The notes beneath the pieces were generated by a model. It made no database searches, was not told the origin of the DNA, and saw only the letters and a program-made list of their open reading frames with translations. Of a stretch of 64,000 bases of DNA, positions 37,875-49,171 are shown piece after piece. The DNA is from Tepidicella xavieri (GTDB lineage Bacteria; Pseudomonadota; Gammaproteobacteria; Burkholderiales; Burkholderiaceae_C): assembly GCF_004363315.1 (NCBI RefSeq), contig NZ_SNYL01000001.1, forward strand, positions 139,885 through 203,884. Direction: 5' to 3'. Position numbers and translations under genes: made by a program. The first letter of the stretch is position 1; each line of letters starts with the position of its first letter.

Positions 37875-39182
37875 TCATGACGTTCGTCGCAGCTCGGCCA
37901 GCACCTCGCGGGCGGCCGCCACGGTGGCGGCGATGTCGTCTTCGCTGTGGGCGGCGCTGACGAAGCCGGCTTCGTACAGTGCCGGCGCGAAGTAGATGCC
38001 ACGCGCCAGCATGCCGTGGAAGAAGCGGTTGAAGCGCTGCGCGTCCGTGCGCATGACGCTGGCGTAGTTTTGCGGCAGTTCCTCCATCAAGAAGAAGCCA
38101 AACATGCCGCCCTGGCTGTCGCCGCACAGCGCAACGCCGGCCTCTTGCGCTGCCTGGGTCAGGCCCTGAATCAGACTTTGGGTGCGTTGCGACAGGGCTT
38201 CGAAGAAGCCGGGTTTCTGGATTTCGCGCAAGGTGGCCAGGCCGCAAGCCGTGGCCACCGGGTTGCCACTGAGCGTGCCGGCCTGATACACCGCGCCCAA
38301 TGGGGCGAGTTGCTCCATGACGGCCCGCTTGGCACCGAACGCGGCCAGCGGCATGCCGCCACCGATGACCTTGCCCAGCACGGTGATGTCGGGCTCGAAG
38401 CCCGGGATGGCCTGGGCATACAGGCTCTGGGCACCGCCCAAAGCGACGCGGAAGCCGGTCATGACCTCATCAAAGGCCAGCAGGGCGCCGTGCTGGCTGC
38501 ACAGTTCGCGGCAGCGCCGAATGAAAGGCACGCTGGCGCGCACGAAATTCATGTTGCCGGCGATGGGCTCGATCATCAGGCAAGCAATATCGGCGCCGTG
38601 CTCGGCGAACGCGGCTTCGAGCTGCTGCAGGTTGTTGTATTCCAGCACCAGGGTGTGTTGCACCACTTCGGGCGGCACGCCGGCGCTGGTCGGGTTGCCG
38701 AACGTGGCCAAGCCAGAGCCGGCTTTGACCAGCAGCGCATCGGCATGTCCGTGGTAGCAGCCTTCGAACTTGATGATTTTTTTGCGTCCCGTGGCGCCAC
38801 GCGCCAGCCGGATGGCGCTCATGCCGGCCTCGGTGCCGGAGCTCACCAGACGCACCATCTCGATGCTGGGCACCAGGCGGATGATCTCCTCGGCCAATTC
38901 GACTTCGCGTTCCGTGGGCGCGCCAAAGCTGAAGCCGTCGCGGGCGGCTTGCTGCACCGCCTCCAGCACGGCCGGGTGGCCATGCCCCAAGATCATCGGG
39001 CCCCAGGAGCCGATGTAGTCGATGTAGCGCTGGCCGTTGGCGTCCCAGAAGTAGGCGCCTTGGGCACGTTGGACGAAGCGCGGCGTGCCGCCCACGGCTC
39101 TGAATGCCCGCACCGGGGAGTTGACGCCCCCGGGGATGAATTGTTTGGCACGGTCGAAAAGCTCTTGGTTGCGGTCTGTCAT
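37875..39182 (-). CDS. hemL: Glutamate-1-semialdehyde 2,1-aminomutase
   Basis: Converts glutamate-1-semialdehyde to 5-aminolevulinate, the C5 route to heme. The 435-residue PLP enzyme begins [20 protein letters not shown], and has [13 protein letters not shown], the [10 protein letters not shown] motif and the PLP lysine Lys271 in [18 protein letters not shown] 39182 is chosen for the family N-terminus; an upstream extension of the frame is Arg/Pro-rich and non-conserved. The ThiD-like kinase lies 46 bases upstream on the same strand. Confidence 0.97.
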
Positions 39183-39228
39183 GATGCAAAAAAACGATGG
39201 AAGGCAGTGAGGCGATGGGCCTGGGGGC

Positions 39229-40155
39229 TCAATGCGGCGTCTGGCCGCCGGGGAAACGTTCGAGTTCGTGGGCCGGTGCCTCGGCGGCTTCGCCCGACGG
39301 CTCCTCGCCATCTTCATGGGCCCAGAACAGGCGGTCGGGCACGGCGTGGCCCATGCCGGGCTGGAAGCCCGCGTCCAGGCATTGGTCGAGGTAGGTGAGC
39401 GCTTCGGCGCAAGCGCCTTGCAGATCGCTGTCGTTGGCCAGCAGGGCGCACAGGGCGGCAGAGAGGGTGTCGCCAGCGCCGGTGAAGGTGGCTTCGAACC
39501 GCTCGTAGCGGGCGGTGGCCAGCACGGTTTCGGGCGAGGCGAGGTGACTTTCCAGAAACTGGTCGGGGGCGTTGAAGCCGGTCACCAGGGTGTAGGGCGT
39601 GCCGAATTCGGCGGCGGCCTTGGCCAGATCGCGTGGTCCAGGGGGGCGGTCGTCCGCCCAGTCTGGCAACAGCCAGCGGCACAGGGTATTGTGGTTGCCC
39701 ACCAGCACGCTCACCTGAGGCAGCAGCAGTTCGGCGAAGGCGTCCAGATAGTTTTCGCGCTCCACCTCGTCCCACCAGGCCAGTTCGGGCATGTAGCCGA
39801 TCACGGGCACGTCGGCATAGTCACTCAGCAACTCTGCAATCGTGCTGAGGTTTTCGGTGCTGCCGGCAAAGCCCACCTTGATCGCTTTGACGCTGGTGTC
39901 TTCGAGCACGCAACGGGCCTGCTCCTCCACCGCTTCCTCATCGAGCGCGATGTGGTGGTGAATGCTGCGGGTGTCGCGCACGTAGGTGCCGGTGACCACG
40001 GGCAGCACATGGCAGGACGCGCTGGCCATGGCCGTGAGGTCGGCGGCCAGCCCGCCAGCGCCGCTGGGGTCGTTGGCGTTGAAGCTCATCACGCAGGGCA
40101 GGGAGGCTTCGACGGGCACGGGAGCGGGCGACGGCGTGTCGGAGGAAAAGGTCAT
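39229..40155 (-). CDS. thiD: ThiD-like (HMP/phosphomethylpyrimidine) kinase with GAGD motif
   Basis: A 308-residue ribokinase-fold protein of the ThiD family, which phosphorylates HMP and HMP-P for thiamine synthesis. The N-terminal [13 protein letters not shown] (28-40) matches ThiD. The anion-hole motif, however, is [11 protein letters not shown] (224-234) with Asp229 where characterised ThiD proteins have Cys in a GTGC motif; Asp is usual in ribokinase and PdxY-type enzymes. The central [12 protein letters not shown] replaces the usual TPN-E segment. A tail of about 30 acidic residues follows. ThiD is the best family name, but the substrate is less certain than usual. It is divergent from rubredoxin. 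Confidence 0.8.
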
Positions 40156-40218: not shown

Positions 40219-40392
40219 ATGAGTGCAAGCAAAACCTGGATGTGCCTGATCTGCGGCTGGATCTACGACGAAGAGGCGGGGGCGCCAGACCACGGGATCG
40301 CGCCGGGCACCCGCTGGGAGGACGTGCCCTTGAACTGGACGTGCCCGGAATGCGGGGCACGCAAGGAAGATTTTGAGATGGTGCAGATCTGA
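40219..40392 (+). CDS. Rubredoxin
   Basis: A 57-residue electron carrier with one Fe(Cys)4 centre. Cysteines are in MCLICGWIYD and WTCPECGA, the two CxxCG loops of rubredoxins; GTRWEDVPLNW is the conserved middle. It is too short for a long-ORF search but unambiguous. It is followed after 5 bases by pilG. Alkane hydroxylase partners are absent here; the rubredoxin-pilG neighbourhood recurs in betaproteobacteria and its meaning is unknown. Confidence 0.95.
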   Translation: MSASKTWMCLICGWIYDEEAGAPDHGIAPGTRWEDVPLNWTCPECGARKEDFEMVQI

Positions 40393-40397
40393 CGCAT

Positions 40398-40796
40398 ATG
40401 GCAACCCAGGGCGCCTCCCTGAGAAAAATCCTGGTGGTTGATGACAGTCAAACGGTCAGGCGCAGCGCCGAGATGTTTCTCCGCCAGGAAGGCCACGAGG
40501 TGCTGCTGGCGGAAGACGGCTTCGAGGCTTTGGCCAGAATCCATGACTTTGGTCCGGATTTGGTTTTTTGCGACATCCTCATGCCCCGCCTGGACGGGTA
40601 TCAGACTTGCGCCATCATCAAACAGAATGCCCGCTTTTCATCCACCCCGGTGGTGATGCTGTCCTCCAAAGACGGCGTGTTCGACAAGGCCCGAGGCCGC
40701 ATGGTGGGAGCGCAGCATTATTTGACCAAACCTTTTACCAAAGAAGAGTTGCTGCTGGCCATCAGGCAGTTTGCGGCAGAGCCCCGCGGAGGTTGA
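40398..40796 (+). CDS. pilG: PilG-like response regulator
   Basis: A 132-residue single receiver domain, CheY-like. The acidic pocket is in ILVVDDSQTVRR (Asp15, Asp16), the phosphoacceptor is Asp59 in FCDILMPRLDG and the conserved lysine is Lys111 in LTKPFTKEE. In Pseudomonas aeruginosa PilG is phosphorylated by ChpA and promotes pilus extension and cAMP synthesis. PilG rather than PilH is assigned by gene order and sequence (first of the pair, QTVRRSAEMFL). Confidence 0.9.
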   Translation: MATQGASLRKILVVDDSQTVRRSAEMFLRQEGHEVLLAEDGFEALARIHDFGPDLVFCDILMPRLDGYQTCAIIKQNARFSSTPVVMLSSKDGVFDKARGRMVGAQHYLTKPFTKEELLLAIRQFAAEPRGG

Positions 40797-40797
40797 G

Positions 40798-41163
40798 ATG
40801 CCCATCAAGAAAATACTGATCGTTGACGATTCCAAAACGGAACGCATGGCCTTGGCCCAAATATTGAGCAAGGGGGGCTATGCCGTCTCGGCGGCCGAAG
40901 GCCCGGATGAGGCGCTTGCCCGTCTGGCGCAAGACAAACCCGATCTCATCCTGATGGATGTGGTCATGCCCGGCGGCAATGGTTTTCAGTTGACTCGTAC
41001 CATTTCCCGCAATCCCGATTACGCGGACATTCCTATCATCATCTGCACCAGCAAAGGGCAGGAAACCGATCGCGTCTGGGGCATGCGGCAAGGTGCCCGA
41101 GATTACATCGTCAAACCGATCAATGGCGATGACCTGATTGCCAGAATACAGGCTTTGGGTTGA
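40798..41163 (+). CDS. pilH: PilH-like response regulator
   Basis: A 121-residue single-domain receiver starting one base after the pilG stop. It has Asp10/Asp11 in ILIVDDSKTER, phosphoacceptor Asp54 in LMDVVMPGGNGF and Lys107 in IVKPINGDD. In P. aeruginosa PilH opposes or drains phosphate from PilG and favours pilus retraction. The GAGATG context (GGAGGTTGAG) gives a good ribosome-binding site overlapping pilG's end. Confidence 0.9.
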   Translation: MPIKKILIVDDSKTERMALAQILSKGGYAVSAAEGPDEALARLAQDKPDLILMDVVMPGGNGFQLTRTISRNPDYADIPIIICTSKGQETDRVWGMRQGARDYIVKPINGDDLIARIQALG

Positions 41164-41189
41164 CGGCATAACGAATCAGAGGGGGAGGC

Positions 41190-41726
41190 ATGGCCAACCG
41201 CCAATCGCTCGCGGAATTGCAGGAACGCCTGACCAGGCGTTTGAAAGAGGCGGAGACGGAGGCGGTCTCCCATGCGTGGTTGGCGGTGGAGGCAGGAATC
41301 GGGCGGTATTTGCTGCCTCTGGCGCAGTCGGGCGAGATTCATGCGTGGTCAGGCGTGTTCCCGGTTCCCCACACCAAGCCTTGGTATGCGGGCTTGGCCA
41401 ATCTGCGCGGGGACTTGCAGGGGGTGATTGACTGGGCGGTTTTCGTCGAAGGGCCGGCCCCAGGTGTGCTCCCGGCTGCCGATCGTGTGACGTCCGAGTC
41501 GCGGCTGGTGTGTTTGAGTCCAGCGCTGGGAGTGAACGCCGCATTGCTGGTCGATCGACTGATGGGCTTGCGGCAGCCCGGAGACTTTTCCAGTGCCGAG
41601 CCGGTTGCCGATCCTCAACAGGCCTTCATCCGGCAAAGGCTCAAGGACGGCAATGGGCAATGGTGGTCCGAGTTGGACTTGCAGATGCTTTGCGCAGACG
41701 CGCAGTTTCTCGACGTGGTGGCTTGA
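41190..41726 (+). CDS. pilI: PilI-like CheW adaptor
   Basis: A 178-residue CheW-domain protein (about residues 25-165: GIGRYLLPLAQSGEIHAWSGV, VPHTKPWYAGLANLRGDLQGVID) that would couple the PilJ receptor to the ChpA kinase. An AGAGGGGGAGG ribosome-binding site precedes ATG 41190. It lies between pilH and pilJ, the normal position. Confidence 0.9.
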   Translation: MANRQSLAELQERLTRRLKEAETEAVSHAWLAVEAGIGRYLLPLAQSGEIHAWSGVFPVPHTKPWYAGLANLRGDLQGVIDWAVFVEGPAPGVLPAADRVTSESRLVCLSPALGVNAALLVDRLMGLRQPGDFSSAEPVADPQQAFIRQRLKDGNGQWWSELDLQMLCADAQFLDVVA

Positions 41727-41748
41727 ATAGATACTTGAAGGGGATGAC

Positions 41749-43992
41749 ATGGCTTGGCAGGCGCGCTTTTTGACATTCTTCAATCGATCCAAGGACAAAG
41801 AACTGGCCGCCGCGCAAGAGACGCCCTCCACCTCTGTGCTGCAAGACAGTGTGTATCGTGGGTTCGATGAAGACCTGTCGAAGCGGGGGCATGCCACCGA
41901 ACCCCTGGCAGATGCCGATTCGCGGCATATCGTCGCGCTGCCATTGCTCGGGGCCAGGCCGGTGGAGCAGCATCGCAAGACGCTGTCCGCTTTGCTGGCC
42001 ATCGCGGTGCTGCTGGCCGTGGGGCTGACGGTATGGGTGGTGGTTCAGGCACAGCGGACGTCGGCGCAGGTGGCGGCTGTGGGCCAGGCGTTGCTGGAAT
42101 CGCAGCGTTTGGCCAACAGTGCCTCGCAGGCTGTCTCCGGTCGAGTCCCGGCTTTTTCCGTCGTCAGAGACAGTGCTGACTCGCTGCTGGGCAATCTGCG
42201 TGGTCTCAAAGAAGGCAGTGCGCCGTTGGGCTTGGCGCCGCTGTCGCGAGGCATGATGCCGTTGTTGGAGCAGCCATTGCTGCAGGCCGAGGAGGTGCAC
42301 CGGAATGCCGGCATCATTTTGGTGCAGGAGCAATTCCTGACGAATTTCGGCTCGGCATTGCGCGCCATCGGCGATCAGTCATCAGATTTGCTGGAGTTGA
42401 CCGAAACGATCGCCGCTTTGAAGTTGGCCAACAACGCCCCGTCCACGGAACTGGCGGCCATTGGACGGCTCGTGATGCTGACCCAGCGCATTGCCCGTTC
42501 AGCCAGTGAACTGCTGACACCCGAAGGCATCAGCCCTCAGGCGGCATTCAGTCTGGGCAATGATTTCAATACCTTTCAGGAAATTGCCCAGGGCTTGCTG
42601 GCGGGCAGTGACATGATGCAATTGAAGGCCGCAACCGATCCAGATGAGCGGATTGCTTTGGACCAGTTGGTGCTGCGGTTGTCGCAATTGAAAAATCAGG
42701 TGAATCCGGTTCTGGGGGGGTTGCAAGCCCTGGTTCAAGCCAATAATGCACAGGGCGTCATCGAGGCGGCCAGTGAAGATTTGCGAACTTCCTTGGCGCC
42801 CTTGCAAGAGGCGCTGTCCAGCACAGCGGGGCTGGACGTTCTGGAGTTTGCGGTACTGATGGTATTGGTGCTGCTGGTGGTGGTTTTGATTGCCGCGCTG
42901 GTTTATCTGCGGCTTCAGGACAGCCGCCAGCGGCAGCAACAGGCGGAGCAGCAGCGTCAACTGGCCCAGTCTCAAGAACAGGAGGCCAAGCGAATCAACG
43001 ATGCCAACCAGGCTGCCATTCTGCGGTTGATGAACGAGCTGCAAGCGGTGGCAGAGGGTGACTTGACCCAGCAAGCCACCGTGACGGAGGACATCACGGG
43101 GGCGATCGCCGACTCCATCAACTACACGGTCGAAGAGTTGCGCTCCTTGGTGGGGCAGGTGCAGGCGATCACGAACCGGGTCAGCCTGACCACCTCCACG
43201 GTGGAAAACACCTCCACCGATCTGTTGGAAGTGTCGGCGCAGCAGCTGCGCGCGATTCAGAGCACGGGTCAGTCGGTGCTCGACATGGCGCGCCGCATCA
43301 ATCAGGTGTCTGAGCGTGCGCAAGTCTCTGCCGAGGCGGCGCGGGCTTCGCGGCAAGCAGCGGAATCGGGGATGAAGGCGGTGCAAGACACGATCGGGGG
43401 CATGAACACCATCCGTGAGCAGATTCAGGTGACCGCCAAACGCATCAAGCGGCTGGGTGAATCCTCCCAGGAGATTGGCGAAATCACGGAGCTGATTTCG
43501 GACATTACCGAGCAAACCAACGTGTTGGCCATGAATGCGGCCATCCAGGCGGCTTCGGCCGGTGAGGCTGGTCGCGGGTTTTCTGTCGTGGCCCAGGAGG
43601 TGCAGCGCCTGGCCGAACGCTCGGCGGAGGCGACGCGGCAGATTGCGGCCCTGGTGCGCACCATTCAGGCCGATACCCAAGATGCCGTGCTGTCCATGGA
43701 GCGCTCGACCCGCGAGGTGGTCGAAGGCGCTCGTTTGTCTGACAACGCGGGAGCGGCGCTGACCGAGATCGACCGCCTGTCTCTGGAAGTGACGCGGCTG
43801 ATCGAACAGATCGCGCAGGCCGCGACGCACGAGGCCGAACTGGCCTCTCAAACGGCCAACGACATTCAGCGCATCTTCACCCTGACCGAGCAAACGGGCG
43901 AGGGCACCCGCTCGACGGTGAATCAGGTGCGGGAACTGGCTCGTGTGGCCGAAGAGCTGCGCCGATCGGTGTCTCGCTTCAAGATCGCTTGA
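41749..43992 (+). CDS. pilJ: PilJ-like methyl-accepting chemotaxis protein
   Basis: A 747-residue inner-membrane chemoreceptor. A cytoplasmic N-terminal part of about 75 residues precedes TM1 (about 80-100). A periplasmic type IV pili-methyl-accepting domain follows, then TM2 (about 366-390), a HAMP-like region and the long signalling coiled coil. The hyperconserved tip DITEQTNVLAMNAAIQAASA begins at residue 585. In P. aeruginosa PilJ senses retracted PilA. The pilK and chpB adaptation genes are not adjacent here. Confidence 0.93.
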   Translation: MAWQARFLTFFNRSKDKELAAAQETPSTSVLQDSVYRGFDEDLSKRGHATEPLADADSRHIVALPLLGARPVEQHRKTLSALLAIAVLLAVGLTVWVVVQAQRTSAQVAAVGQALLESQRLANSASQAVSGRVPAFSVVRDSADSLLGNLRGLKEGSAPLGLAPLSRGMMPLLEQPLLQAEEVHRNAGIILVQEQFLTNFGSALRAIGDQSSDLLELTETIAALKLANNAPSTELAAIGRLVMLTQRIARSASELLTPEGISPQAAFSLGNDFNTFQEIAQGLLAGSDMMQLKAATDPDERIALDQLVLRLSQLKNQVNPVLGGLQALVQANNAQGVIEAASEDLRTSLAPLQEALSSTAGLDVLEFAVLMVLVLLVVVLIAALVYLRLQDSRQRQQQAEQQRQLAQSQEQEAKRINDANQAAILRLMNELQAVAEGDLTQQATVTEDITGAIADSINYTVEELRSLVGQVQAITNRVSLTTSTVENTSTDLLEVSAQQLRAIQSTGQSVLDMARRINQVSERAQVSAEAARASRQAAESGMKAVQDTIGGMNTIREQIQVTAKRIKRLGESSQEIGEITELISDITEQTNVLAMNAAIQAASAGEAGRGFSVVAQEVQRLAERSAEATRQIAALVRTIQADTQDAVLSMERSTREVVEGARLSDNAGAALTEIDRLSLEVTRLIEQIAQAATHEAELASQTANDIQRIFTLTEQTGEGTRSTVNQVRELARVAEELRRSVSRFKIA

Positions 43993-44002
43993 GGATAAAG
44001 GC

Positions 44003-47000
44003 GTGAAAGCTCCTCCTGTGCGCGATTTGGGGCCGCTGTCGTGGGTGTTCGACGAAGTCGAACAATCCCTGACCGAAACGGTTCGAGCCGTTGCCCGGTA
44101 TGTGGAGGCGTGTATCGTGGCACGCCACACCGACATGTCCGAGCCCGATGGCACGGAGCTGAGGTGGGTGGGGCAGCAGCTGCATCAGGCTGCGGGCGTG
44201 CTGGACATGGTGGAGCTGCCTGCCGCTGCTCGCACGCTCAGAGCATTGGAGGCGGCTGTGCAGCGGTTCTTGCAAAAACCGGCTGCTGTGACGGAGGATG
44301 CCCCAGGCGTGGTGCGTCGTGGCACGCATGCGCTCATCGATTATCTCGAAAGGCTGCTGCGTGGCCGCACGGTCAAAGCGCTAGATCTGTACGCCACGTA
44401 TCGTCAGTGGCAGCAATTGGCTGGTGCGGCGCGTGCACACCCGGCCGACTTGTGGGCAGAACCGCATGCCGATGTGATGTTGCCCCCGGGGCCGGTGTAT
44501 GAGCCGGGGCCTGTGATTCGGGCGCATCTGGACGGGCTGGTGTTGCGCGTTGTCAAGTCGCTCGATCTCCAGGCCGCCCTCGCTTTGGCGCGGCTGTGTG
44601 CGGGATTGGGTCGCCATGCAGAAGCCGCCGAGGTACGCCGCTTCTGGGCTGTGGCTGCGGCGTATTTCGAGGCGGTGGCATCCGGCCGCTTGCCTGACGA
44701 TCCGCTCGTCAAGCGGGCCGCTTCCACCGTGCTGCTGCGGTATTCCCAACTCCAGCACGGTGACGTGCAGGGTCTGGACACGCACATTCACGACTTGCTG
44801 TTCTGGACGACTCAGGTCCGGCCTGATGCCCAGGAGACTGCGCAGCATTGCTTGCAGGCCGTATGGCAGGCCCATGGATGGAACGATGTTCTGGCTTGGG
44901 ATGCCGCTCATTCAGACCTGGGGAGCTATGACCCCACGGTCTTGCGTTCCCTCAAGGCGGCATTGTCTTCGATTCAGCAGTCTTGGGCCGCCTTTACCGA
45001 AGCGGACGGGGTGTCGGTCGAGCGGCTGGAAGGCATTTTGCAACCTTTGGTGGACGGCTTGCGCGCGTTGATGCCGGCCTGGCCTGTGGTGGCGCAGCTG
45101 GGCGACGCCTGGGCGGCAGTCGCGCAGGTTTGCCGACGGCATGGCCACATTCCCCAGGGGCTGGCGCTGGAAGCGTCAAATTGCTTGCTGCTCTTGGGCG
45201 CCGAACTGGAGGACTTCGACGTTCAGGACGAGTCGGCCGTGGCGCGTTGGTCCACGCTGAACCAGCGCCTGAATCAGGCATTGGCAGGCGAGGCGGTGGC
45301 TGAGCCGCAGGACTGGATGACCGAGCGTTACCGCCGCATTGGGCAGCAGGCCACGGTGGCCCAGGTCGTGGCGCAATGGCAAGCCGAATTGCATGCGGTC
45401 GAAGAAGTGCTCGATGCCTGTTACCGTGGGCAAACCCCGGTGTCTGCCTCCGTCATCCAGGAACTGAACCGCCGGCTCGAAGGCATGGGCGGGATCGCGA
45501 CCTTGCTGGATTTGCCTGCGGCCCGGCAAACGGTGGATGCCGTGCGCGGTGCCCTGGCCAAGCTGCGGCCCGATGAAGGGGAGGATGCGGCTGCGCAGCT
45601 GCAATCCGTTGCCCAACAGCTCAGCACCAATATCACGGCCCTGGGTTGGATGTTGGACACGTTTGTCCGTCAGCCGGATTTGGCCAGGGCTTCCTTTGTG
45701 TTTGACGAGACCCGTGCTTGCTTGCAGGGTCTGGCAGCCGAGTCAGCCGCCGCGGATACGCCTGAAACATGGGCGTCGGATGCTTCTGCCGCCAGCGCGG
45801 TGATTCCGCTGCCGGATGCCGAGCCGGTGGAGATGGTTGCCGAGGCGCTGGTGGAGGCGCCAGAAGATGAGGAGCAAGGTCTGCTAGACATCTTCTTGGG
45901 TGAAGCCCGCAGCGTGTTCGAAGGGGTCTCGCCCACCCTGGACATCCTGCGCCAACAGCCCGATCGACTGGCCGATTTGACGGCCGTGCGCCGCGCTTTT
46001 CATACCCTCAAGGGCAGCGCGCGCATGGTGGGCCTGTCGGATTTGGGCGAGGCCGCGTGGGCCATGGAGCAGTTGCTCAACGCCTGGCTTGCCGAACAGA
46101 AGGCGGCCAGCGCGGAATTGCTGGATTTGTGTCAGGATGCCCTGACCTATCTCCAAGATTGGGTGGAGGAACTGGCCACGCACAAGCCCGAAGTGGCGCA
46201 GCGTCGCGCCGATCGCATCGCAGCCTGCGCACATGCCTTGCGGCTCGAAGGGCGCTATGAGCCCTTGGCGCCGTTTGAGACTTCTCGCGAGCCTGCCGAA
46301 TCTCAGCTTCCCGTCTTGGATGAAGTGGTCTTGACGCCGAGTGCAGACGACGGTGCCGAAATTCCGGTGCTTGACGAAGAAATCAAGTGCATCGGGCCTC
46401 TCAAAATCGGTGCGGCGCTGTACAACGTCTTCATCAACGAAGCGGAAGAGTGGTCGCGCCGTTTGTGCGAAGGGTTGAGTGAATGGCGCAGCGGTTCAGC
46501 CCGAGGGCGGCCGCCGGTGGGATTGTCGGCCTGGGCCCATTCGCTGGCGGGAGGGGCTGCGACCGTCGGTTACGAAGGCTTGTCGCAACTGGCGCGAGCG
46601 CTCGAGCACGCGCTGGATCGGTTGAGCGCCCCTGAAACAGCGGCTCCGCCAGACCCGCAAGCCGATCTGCTGGTGCGCGCGGGTGACGAAATCCGTGAGC
46701 TGCTTCACCAATTTGCGGCCGGCTTTCTGCGCGCCCCCAATCCCGATGTGGTGTCTGCATTGGAGGGGGTGCCAGGCCAGACGCCCCAGCCCGCCGAACC
46801 GCAGGCCGACGCCAGGGAAGCGCCCCAGGACCAAGCGCCTGCCGCTGCACAGCCTTTGCCCTCAGGTCGGGTGGGTGTCGATGCCGATTTGATCGCCGTT
46901 TTCGTGGAGGAGGCGCAAGACTTGCTGCCCCGGGTCTCGGCGGCGCTGCGGCAGTGGGCCGACGCGCCGCACGATGCCTTGGCGCGGGCCGAGGTGTTGC

Positions 47001-49171
47001 GCAATTTGCACACCCTCAAGGGCAGCGCCCGTTTGTGCGGCGAAATGGCCCTGGGTGACCGCTTTCACGGTTTGGAAAGCGATGTGCTGGCATTGCCAGA
47101 AGCCCCCAATCCCGAAGACATTGCCGCGCTGCTGCACACGTTCGACGGGATCGTTGCCGATCTGGAAGCTTTGCGCCAAGGCCCCGCCCCGCTGGCGGCC
47201 CCGGTGTTGGCGGCGCCGCATGCGCGTCCGTCGGGGGGGTCGGGGGCCGAGGTGCTGCCGCCGGTGGCCAAGCCGCTGCCGGCCGATGGGGGCATGCGTG
47301 CGCTGGCCTCTGTCCGGGTGCGGCCCCAGCTGCTCGATCAGCTGATGTCGCAGACAGGCGACTTGATGATTGCCCGTTCGCGCCTGGAGAACGATGTGCG
47401 CGCCTTGCGCCAGTCGTTCAAGGACATGAGCGGCAACATCGAGCGCTTGCGGGCGCAGTTGCGCGACCTGGAAATCCAGACCGAGTTGCAAATGCAGTCC
47501 CGCATCGCGCAAAACCGCGAAGCCGACTCCCGGTTCGATCCGCTGGAGTTTGACCGTTACACCCGGGTGCAGGAACTCACTCGCCTGCTGGCCGAGGCCG
47601 TCAATGACGTGGCGACGGTGCAGCTGGGCTTGAGCCGTTCGGTTGAATCGGCCGAGAACAATCTGGCTGCGCAAACCCACATCACCCGGGAGCTGCAGCG
47701 CAACCTGCTGCGCACCCGCCTGGTCGCGTTCAGTACCATCGAGGAACGCCTGCACCGTGTGGTGCGCCAAGCCGCCGATGCTGCCGGGAAGCTGGCAGAG
47801 CTGACCATCGCGCAGCAAGACATCGAGGTCGATCGGGCGGTGCTCGAAAAACTGGTTCCGGTGCTGGAGCACCTGCTGCGCAATGCCGTGGTGCACGGCA
47901 TCGAGGCTCCGGCGCAGCGCGTGCAGGCGGGCAAGCCAGAGGTGGGGCAGATCCGTCTGGCGCTGTCGGTGCAGGGCAATGATCTGTCGCTGTCGTTGTC
48001 AGACGACGGGGCCGGGTTGAACGTCGAACGGCTACAGGCCAAGGCAGTGGCCGCGGGCCTGCATCCTGCCGGCGTGCCTTTGTCGCCCGAGGATGCCGTG
48101 CGCTTGATTTTCGCCTCGGGTATTTCCACCGCGTCCGAAGTCACTGAAGTGGCTGGCCGGGGCATCGGCCTGGATGTGGTGCGCACCGAAGTGATGGGGC
48201 TTGGGGGGCGCATCGAGTGCAAACCACCGGCCGAAGGCGCCGGCACCGAATTCCGCTTGGTCGTGCCATTGAGCACGGCGGTCACGCAGGTCGTGATGCT
48301 GCGCGTGGGCGATTGGGTGTTTGGCGTGCCTTCGCCTTGGGTCGATCGCATTCGCCGGGTCAAGCTGCCCGAATTGGCGCCGGCCTATCAGAGCTGCCAA
48401 TGGACCGAGGGCTCGACCAACATCCCGTTTTACTGGGCTGGCGCGCTGCTGGCCCATTCGGCGCAGAGCGCGGACATGTCCAACCCCGAGGCCAAGTATG
48501 CATCGGTCGTCGTGTTCTGGGTGGCCGGGCAGCAGGTGGCTTGGCATGTGGACGAAGTGCTGGGCAACCAGGAGGTCGTGGTCAAGCCCATGGGGCCGCA
48601 GCTGTCCAGACTGCCGGGCCTGACCGGCGTGACCGTGCTGGCCTCCGGGGCCGTGGCGCTGATTTACAACCCGGCCACCTTGTCGGAAACATACGGTCAC
48701 GAAGCGTGGGCCTGGATGCGTTCACCCCGTGCGGCGCGTGACCACCCCTACGCCTCCGCATCGCCAGGCGATGCGGAGGCGACGACCCAGACCCCGTTGA
48801 TCTTGGTGGTGGATGACTCCATCACGGTTCGGCGGGTGACGCAGCGCCTGCTCAAGCGCGAGGGATACCGCGTGGCCTTGGCCGCGGATGGTCAGCAAGC
48901 GCTGGAGCGTATTGCCGAGGAAATGCCCTTGGTGGTGTTGTGCGACATCGAAATGCCCCGCATGGACGGCTTCGAGCTGGTGCAACACCTGCGCAACCAG
49001 CCGCAGACTGCCTCGTTGCCGGTGGTGATGATCACCTCGCGCTTGGCTGAGAAGCACTGGGAGCACGCCAAGAGCTTGGGGGTCAACCACTATCTGGGCA
49101 AGCCCTATGTCGAGGAGGAGTTGCTGAAAATCATCGAGGGACATGTGCGCTTGGCCACCTATCGGGCCTGA
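44003..49171 (+). CDS. chpA: ChpA-like hybrid histidine kinase with multiple HPt domains
   Basis: A 1722-residue CheA-type kinase that should phosphorylate PilG and PilH. Reading along it: an HPt-like module with His61 (LHQAAGVLDMVEL); a degenerate one near 490-530 (LNRRLEGMGGIATLL, no His); canonical HPt with His667 (HTLKGSARM); a variant with His846 (HSLAGGA); canonical HPt with His1003 (HTLKGSARL). Then come a dimerisation region, an ATPase domain with N box NAVVHGIE (1294-1301) and DDGAG (1334-1338), a CheW-like domain (about 1425-1570) and a C-terminal receiver (Asp1604/1605, phosphoacceptor Asp1648, Lys1700). GTG 44003 behind GAGGATAAAG is the start; the open frame extends into pilJ. 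P. aeruginosa ChpA is longer, with more HPt modules. Confidence 0.93.
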   Translation: MKAPPVRDLGPLSWVFDEVEQSLTETVRAVARYVEACIVARHTDMSEPDGTELRWVGQQLHQAAGVLDMVELPAAARTLRALEAAVQRFLQKPAAVTEDAPGVVRRGTHALIDYLERLLRGRTVKALDLYATYRQWQQLAGAARAHPADLWAEPHADVMLPPGPVYEPGPVIRAHLDGLVLRVVKSLDLQAALALARLCAGLGRHAEAAEVRRFWAVAAAYFEAVASGRLPDDPLVKRAASTVLLRYSQLQHGDVQGLDTHIHDLLFWTTQVRPDAQETAQHCLQAVWQAHGWNDVLAWDAAHSDLGSYDPTVLRSLKAALSSIQQSWAAFTEADGVSVERLEGILQPLVDGLRALMPAWPVVAQLGDAWAAVAQVCRRHGHIPQGLALEASNCLLLLGAELEDFDVQDESAVARWSTLNQRLNQALAGEAVAEPQDWMTERYRRIGQQATVAQVVAQWQAELHAVEEVLDACYRGQTPVSASVIQELNRRLEGMGGIATLLDLPAARQTVDAVRGALAKLRPDEGEDAAAQLQSVAQQLSTNITALGWMLDTFVRQPDLARASFVFDETRACLQGLAAESAAADTPETWASDASAASAVIPLPDAEPVEMVAEALVEAPEDEEQGLLDIFLGEARSVFEGVSPTLDILRQQPDRLADLTAVRRAFHTLKGSARMVGLSDLGEAAWAMEQLLNAWLAEQKAASAELLDLCQDALTYLQDWVEELATHKPEVAQRRADRIAACAHALRLEGRYEPLAPFETSREPAESQLPVLDEVVLTPSADDGAEIPVLDEEIKCIGPLKIGAALYNVFINEAEEWSRRLCEGLSEWRSGSARGRPPVGLSAWAHSLAGGAATVGYEGLSQLARALEHALDRLSAPETAAPPDPQADLLVRAGDEIRELLHQFAAGFLRAPNPDVVSALEGVPGQTPQPAEPQADAREAPQDQAPAAAQPLPSGRVGVDADLIAVFVEEAQDLLPRVSAALRQWADAPHDALARAEVLRNLHTLKGSARLCGEMALGDRFHGLESDVLALPEAPNPEDIAALLHTFDGIVADLEALRQGPAPLAAPVLAAPHARPSGGSGAEVLPPVAKPLPADGGMRALASVRVRPQLLDQLMSQTGDLMIARSRLENDVRALRQSFKDMSGNIERLRAQLRDLEIQTELQMQSRIAQNREADSRFDPLEFDRYTRVQELTRLLAEAVNDVATVQLGLSRSVESAENNLAAQTHITRELQRNLLRTRLVAFSTIEERLHRVVRQAADAAGKLAELTIAQQDIEVDRAVLEKLVPVLEHLLRNAVVHGIEAPAQRVQAGKPEVGQIRLALSVQGNDLSLSLSDDGAGLNVERLQAKAVAAGLHPAGVPLSPEDAVRLIFASGISTASEVTEVAGRGIGLDVVRTEVMGLGGRIECKPPAEGAGTEFRLVVPLSTAVTQVVMLRVGDWVFGVPSPWVDRIRRVKLPELAPAYQSCQWTEGSTNIPFYWAGALLAHSAQSADMSNPEAKYASVVVFWVAGQQVAWHVDEVLGNQEVVVKPMGPQLSRLPGLTGVTVLASGAVALIYNPATLSETYGHEAWAWMRSPRAARDHPYASASPGDAEATTQTPLILVVDDSITVRRVTQRLLKREGYRVALAADGQQALERIAEEMPLVVLCDIEMPRMDGFELVQHLRNQPQTASLPVVMITSRLAEKHWEHAKSLGVNHYLGKPYVEEELLKIIEGHVRLATYRA

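Follow-up and report, generated by a model that had tools for sequence, protein, structure and literature searches.

The window analysed here, a 64,000-nucleotide stretch of a Tepidicella xavieri contig, holds a gene for a ThiD-family protein, P0001, lying between hemL and a divergent rubredoxin gene. The features of the locus are:

39229..40155, (−) strand: ThiD-family protein P0001, 308 aa, with an ATG start and no internal stop (ORF and translation)
39469..39480, (−) strand: GAGD, residues 226–229, placing Asp229 at the position of the ThiD cysteine
39976..39978, (−) strand: Arg60 codon, located by alignment with ThiD sequences
39685..39702, (−) strand: VGNHNT, residues 152–157, at the TPNxxE position by alignment
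39319..39360, (−) strand: 14-residue C-terminal motif, residues 266–279, in a stretch of low AlphaFold2 confidence
39183..39228, no strand: intergenic gap of 46 bases from the P0001 gene to hemL
37875..39182, (−) strand: hemL, glutamate-1-semialdehyde aminotransferase, named from its own sequence, with a start chosen by us (ORF 37875–39317)
40219..40392, (+) strand: rubredoxin, 57 aa, divergent, upstream of the P0001 gene (PF00301, 80.9 bits)

Beyond the rubredoxin gene, positions 40398–49171 of the window, read by eye, encode response regulators, a CheW-like gene, a methyl-accepting-type protein and a 1742-aa CheA/Hpt hybrid, and resemble a twitching pil-chp chemosensory cluster.

P0001 matches the PF08543 (Phos_pyr_kin) model at 114 bits, above its cut-off of 27, yet reaches only 78.5 bits against the ThiD equivalog TIGR00097 (cut-off 204.95), for which the other ThiD of the genome scores 310.4. 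Together with the exchanged active-site residue, these scores support the view of the initial annotation that the protein is ThiD-like without being an ordinary ThiD. The active-site cysteine of ThiD (motif GTGC or GSGC), present in 31/31 canonical ThiD rows and in 88/88 orthologues that are the sole ThiD of their genome, is Asp229 here, the last residue of GAGD (226–229), just as that annotation had read it. Its remark on an altered TPNxxE segment also stands, residues 152–157 being VGNHNT within the stretch LVGNHNTL. A third change had gone unmentioned: P0001 carries Arg60 where ThiD has an HMP-binding Gln/Glu. This position is Gln in 88/88 sole-ThiD orthologues and 31/31 canonical ThiD rows (the genome's own ThiD counted twice; two canonical ThiDs, like locus L252, align over short stretches) and Glu in Salmonella ThiD, in which we take Glu44 (position 44) to be HMP-binding and Cys213 to be catalytic.

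The Asp of a GxGD motif is the catalytic base in PdxK/PdxY and ribokinase, and NxxE is a motif of the PfkB-type mechanism. None of the PdxK/PdxY models exceeds its cut-off with P0001 (NF009077, 34.3 versus 385 bits; NF005491, 24.9 versus 231; NF006034, 12.1 versus 342). TIGR00687 and NF004398 give no match to the protein at E 0.1, and PF00294 (PfkB/ribokinase) gives none at E 0.01, nor any at the 39229–40155 locus when the genome itself is searched.

An AlphaFold2 model of P0001, calculated from 42 family sequences, has a mean pLDDT of 84.6 and the ThiD/PdxK fold, with a best VIA Z of 30.7, to 8g1h and 1ub0. The pLDDT falls below 50 over residues 266–297, a region that includes the conserved tail motif (266–279) common to P0001 and the Cys-bearing orthologues of the order-wide sample described below, and mostly absent from canonical ThiD. 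By sequence, the closest natural match in the PDB is A. baumannii 4yl5/4ywr. Among relatives from named species, that of Tepidicella baoligensis is nearest (87% over residues 18–308), and a 900-base core of its gene is identical in the same-genus genome G255. Plasmid relatives (89 records) all lie below 60% identity, and the 15 of the 89 listed are annotated as ThiD or HMP kinase. The titles, abstracts and passages that we searched in the open literature, which took in few subscription papers, hold nothing on the P0001 gene, on thiD-thiE-hemL or on a Cys-less ThiD.

The initial annotation had proposed a search for another thiD, and one is present: PF08543 has two matches in the whole genome, the P0001 gene and a canonical GTGC ThiD. 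P0001 is not the genome's ThiD, and the circumstance raised against the annotation's own reading, that this might be the only ThiD of the genome, does not hold. The canonical gene adjoins a PF01266 oxidoreductase (read by us as ThiO-like), ThiG and ThiE on another contig, C6; over 18 kb around these thiD, ThiO-like, thiG and thiE genes (L293), no TPP riboswitch reaches the gathering threshold. For ThiD, ThiE and ThiC, the earlier statement that no other thiamine gene is close fits the assembly, with ThiD and ThiE on contig C6, ThiC on C4 and the window on C1.

Conservation was followed through 150 genomes of the window's family, in which, by thresholds of our own, a carrier has a P0001 match at E < 1e-70 and another ThiD is a P0002 match at E < 1e-20. 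The gene is carried by 137 of the 150, leaving 13 without it. Alignment of 147 family homologues (140 distinct sequences, some genomes appearing twice, for example as L004 and L145) shows an acidic residue 229 in all 147 (135 Asp, 12 Glu), with Arg60 in 146 and GxG in 146, so Asp229 and Arg60 are not products of chance or sequencing error. Conversely, the Glu of NxxE occurs in 0/147, its place being taken by Thr (129), Ser (11), Ala (4), Val (2) or Asn (1), and Asn154 is found in 132/147. The family has acquired further near-invariant residues—N26, F96, W127, G153 and F224—which, by alignment, presumably lie at the pocket. The setting is equally constant: hemL lies less than 300 bases downstream in 141/143 family loci (a gap of at least 300 bases is seen in 0/143), rubredoxin is present in 141/143, and the tail residues G267, G269, P273, R275 and W278 are found in 143/143.

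Thiamine genes do not follow this pattern. Among the 137 carriers, 80 have ThiD, ThiC and ThiE, 8 have ThiD and ThiE, 1 has ThiD only, and 2 have ThiC only (G251 and G253, 65% and 76% complete). None of ThiD, ThiC and ThiE was detected in the other 46, 42 of which we read as at least 90% complete; this count does not score TMP-TENI matches in the weak range of E 1e-5 to 1e-3 as ThiE, although one such match, in a member of the 46 (G196), exceeds the cut-off when taken together with its neighbours. For about one-third of carriers, P0001 can hardly serve HMP-P synthesis, and a role in HMP or thiamine metabolism, HMP having been named by the initial annotation, is not supported. As a separate observation, several family genomes, among them G211 (C10:116424–117206), G215 (C130) and G182 (C24), hold a look-alike of a ThiD–ThiE fusion, a single frame of about 650–780 aa near thiC and apparently a second type of replacement ThiD in the family.

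A wider sample of 150 genomes from the order yielded 115 homologues whose locus was read (matches of at least 98 bits). The cysteine is kept in 94 of them, and 94/94 of these have Gln at position 60. Of these 94 Cys-bearing orthologues, 89 have ThiE in the locus, 84 have hemL and 79 have rubredoxin (we treat a rubredoxin scored 'down, opp' as an artefact of overlapping stop-to-stop ORFs), and 75 are separated from hemL by 300 bases or more. ThiE is thus at 89/94 Cys-bearing loci, 3/21 Cys-lost loci and 0/143 loci of the window's family. Four further genomes stand outside the counts of 115 and 94, namely G003, G018 and G109 (lower scores) and G122 (a contig-end fragment); each has GSGC with ThiE and hemL alongside, as the sole ThiD match of its genome. 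The ThiDs of the first three (L324, L325 and L326), which lie by rubredoxin, ThiE and HemL and score low against P0001, have a different tail, GQ.LIP[DN]R and not GMG..PDR.FW. Some genomes of the order, such as G016, G029 and G031, have a canonical-type ThiD only and no P0001 homologue.

Outside the order, the 27 best-scoring homologues from 274 genomes of the class, a set skewed to close relatives, comprise 27 with Cys, 25 with ThiE, 23 with hemL and 11 with rubredoxin at the locus; GMG of the tail is present in 23/27 and missing in 4/27. A cysteine with thiE and hemL as neighbours is therefore probably the ancestral state, and the simplest reading makes the window gene the native thiD of an old thiD-thiE-hemL cluster that no longer contains thiE.

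Loss of the cysteine coincides with the presence of a second ThiD. It is lost in 21/115 homologues of the order sample, and 21/21 of those genomes have another ThiD; it is kept in 88/88 genomes without another ThiD, while 6 keep it despite having one. Genome G043 is classed among those without another ThiD, as its two P0001 matches belong, in frame, to a single intact ORF and the top P0002 match in this genome (6.7e-28) falls within the range of native homologues. Fisher's test on Cys loss against another ThiD gives p 5.6e-18, a value that ignores kinship and does not count as independent evidence. Parsimony requires at least 6 changes of Cys state on the tree, a number made uncertain by the mutual attraction of fast rows and long branches. 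Restricting the comparison to supported branches leaves 6 independent pairs, about 3 in the predicted direction and 0 opposite (median p 0.25, not significant).

The replacements are diverse: Asp in families f1, f51 and f32 (the last with a changed motif), Thr in f22, f5 and f8, Ala in f5 and f14, Ser in f30 and Asn or Gly in f8, with rewritten motifs at the site in f4 and f51. Genome G119 (L242, f32) combines Arg60 and Asp229 as in the window's family with the motif GITD, which could reflect convergence or shared origin. Four f8 genomes (G007, G056, G101 and G141) have a ThiD a few kb from thiC that scores between the canonical and native types; the one in G101 reads GSGC plus TPN and has ThiE adjoining.

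Substitution patterns indicate that the altered copies are maintained. The pN/pS of the window gene against its closest relatives is 0.18–0.38, and that of hemL in the same pairs 0.18–0.23 (8 pairs, 7 distinct genomes). In the other Cys-lost families, pairs from f22, f5, f14 and f4 give 0.11, 0.15, 0.12 and 0.40, respectively, and two Cys-bearing pairs give 0.03 and 0.08, synonymous sites being near saturation in several of the pairs. Purifying selection on the Cys-lost copies is clear, and weaker than on Cys-bearing copies. The aligned part is free of stops in 80/80 named loci, and one family match, in G220, contains a TGA.

What is being kept was examined at 79 positions invariant in the Cys-bearing orthologues, scored in the 21 Cys-lost sequences. 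Active-site positions, a set picked by us on the basis of ThiD structures, retain the ancestral residue in 141/294 cells, a proportion biased downwards by the inclusion of position 229 itself, against 142/168 in the C-terminal tail and 988/1197 elsewhere. Averaged by family, active-site retention is 0.49 (permutation p 5e-5); tail retention, at 0.84, is not above that of the other invariant positions (p 0.22). Families f5, f22 and f14 hold 93–95% of the rest of the protein and 61–67% of the active site. Residues R81, L84, E85, D86, D112, Y113 and P117 and the G267-M268-G269 triplet occur in 21/21 Cys-lost sequences, and GMG is absent at the locus from the Cys-bearing G003, G018 and G109. Across the Cys-lost lineages the site thus appears to decay while the body stays, which is the pattern of an enzyme no longer needing its chemistry. 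For the window's family, the fixed Asp/Glu229, Arg60 and the new near-invariant residues suggest more than decay: the protein may bind a new ligand, have its old pocket filled by a salt bridge, or have become a new kinase.

The neighbouring genes proved of little help. We considered rubredoxin as a partner of the C-terminal motif and rejected it, as G267, G269, P273 and R275 are present in 94/94 Cys-bearing orthologues although 7 homologue carriers of the order sample have no rubredoxin match (G020, G025, G035, G062, G080, G115 and G145). We also set aside hemL as a clue to function, its adjacency being older than the change and hemL being missing from 10/21 Cys-lost loci (flanks of about 1.5 kb); with rubredoxin present in 19/21, gene order is a weak guide to what the protein does.

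Taken together, P0001 is very probably a displaced thiD with a putative function outside thiamine synthesis. Granted this, we would choose, with moderate confidence, a mainly non-catalytic role among the options; the two parts combined, a displaced thiD kept for a putative second function that is mainly non-catalytic, make the reading we favour by a little over even chances. The starting point would be a native thiD in the old thiD-thiE-hemL locus, which in most of the order also has a divergent rubredoxin. HMP/HMP-P phosphorylation would then have passed to another ThiD elsewhere in the genome, here the one beside the ThiO-like gene, thiG and thiE, after which the old locus would have lost thiE, and the old thiD its catalytic Cys, its HMP-binding Gln and TPNxxE; the order of these events is our reconstruction. 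Purifying selection on the protein even in genomes without detectable thiamine synthesis makes a second, non-thiamine function probable. Such a function may already have been present in the Cys-bearing ancestor and may for the most part involve no phosphoryl transfer, relying on the conserved body (R81, L84-E85-D86, D112-Y113 and P117) and the GMG tail, perhaps by binding a protein partner. In the window's family, Arg60 and Asp/Glu229 would let the old substrate pocket hold a different ligand, or would close it by a salt bridge. The function is not indispensable everywhere, as the gene is missing from some genomes of the order and from 13/150 of the family.

Extended beyond this gene, the ThiD of the proteobacterial thiD-thiE-hemL cluster might be a moonlighting protein, its site dismantled repeatedly, with differing replacement residues, after takeover by another ThiD and the protein often kept, nearly fixed, thiamine independent and with a rebuilt pocket in the window's family. 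We hold this broader proposal tentatively, at just short of an even chance.

The presence of an acid at 229 in 147/147 family homologues also fits a working kinase base, and a neofunctionalized small-molecule kinase, with Asp/Glu229 as a PfkB/PdxK-like catalytic base and Arg60 binding a new, probably anionic substrate, would account for the near-fixation of Arg60 and GxG, for the new near-invariant residues N26, F96, W127, G153 and F224, and for a long family stem (1.42 changes per column) followed by conservation. With so many new invariant residues in the family, a non-catalytic role may apply to the remaining Cys-lost lineages but not here. A kinase of this type sits poorly with the complete loss of the NxxE Glu (Asn154 persisting in 132/147), and elsewhere among the Cys-lost lineages the protein persists with Thr, Ala, Ser, Asn or Gly at 229; on this evidence we regard it as unlikely, though a serious contender. 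Another rival, a pyridoxal/pyridoxine kinase for vitamin B6 salvage that serves the PLP enzyme HemL next door among others, draws support from the genome of the window, in which we detected no PdxK/PdxY: its only PF08543 matches are P0001 and ThiD, and its only TIGR00687 match is ThiD. Among the 46 genomes lacking detected thiamine genes, 44 show no TIGR00687 match that exceeds the cut-off. The fold is close to that of the pyridoxal kinases of B. subtilis and S. aureus, and the title of an A. baumannii ThiD structure entry names a pyridoxal phosphate-type ligand. Against this, no B6-kinase model reaches its cut-off, the neighbouring position of hemL dates back to the older locus, and the gene is absent from 2/15 family genomes with a TIGR00687 match over the cut-off and 11/135 without, which gives no sign of substitution by PdxK/PdxY; we consider a B6 kinase improbable. 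A replacement of the gene by PdxK/PdxY had been tried as a candidate in its own right and was dropped, no pattern emerging across the family genomes. One PdxK-type match, G256:C119:3986–4813, has three internal stops and is likely a pseudogene; its genome keeps the GAGD protein.

The two remaining alternatives are both very hard to credit. A backup HMP/HMP-P kinase with Asp doing the work of Cys would explain the shared fold and Pfam family, but Gln60, Cys229 and TPNxxE are all gone, the TIGR00097 score lies far below the cut-off, and the gene is kept in the 46 genomes without detected ThiC, ThiE or other ThiD. A decaying pseudogene on its way out could explain the vanished active-site residues, the 13 family genomes without the gene and selection weaker than on Cys-bearing pairs; set against it are the stop-free aligned parts (the TGA of G220 being the one exception in the family), a pN/pS overlapping that of hemL, retention in 137 of 150 family genomes and the invariant tail residues.

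Several consequences follow. Reading the Pfam match as ThiD would credit genomes like the 46 with a vitamin B1 step that is probably absent. If a second function is real, a vitamin enzyme widespread in the class has an additional job that genetics can expose: in a strain with its own ThiD, deletion of the Cys-less gene should give a phenotype unmixed with B1. The repeated losses also offer a natural series (Cys, Thr/Ala/Ser, Asp/Glu) of an enzyme turning into something else.

Among known systems, P0001 shares with ThiD (TIGR00097; 1jxh/1jxi, 1ub0) the fold (VIA Z 28.1–30.7), PF08543 membership and an ancestral gene position; unlike ThiD, it lacks the catalytic Cys, the HMP-binding Gln/Glu and TPNxxE, falls below the TIGR00097 cut-off and belongs to a family that is also present in genomes with no thiamine pathway detected. 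Fold and descent mark it as a ThiD; its defining residues, its model score and its genomic context do not. The GSGC-type ThiD of thiD-thiE-hemL (94 loci in the order sample, 27 outside, where rubredoxin lies beside only 11/27) is its positional orthologue and has the same tail, GMG..P[DN]R, but keeps Cys and mostly thiE, both of which the P0001 locus has lost. The ThiD-like pyridoxal kinases of B. subtilis (2i5b) and S. aureus (4c5j-n) resemble it in fold (Z 28.8–30.3) and as ThiD folds with a changed substrate; presumably these enzymes keep the Cys, the substrate having changed and not the catalytic residue. PdxK/PdxY and ribokinase share an Asp that ends the GxG motif and, for the PdxK/PdxY entries listed, a fold similarity of Z about 24–28, although no model of these families reaches its cut-off with P0001, whose Asp229 looks like a later replacement of Cys inside a ThiD lineage. 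In our judgement no characterized protein can be named that P0001 clearly works like.
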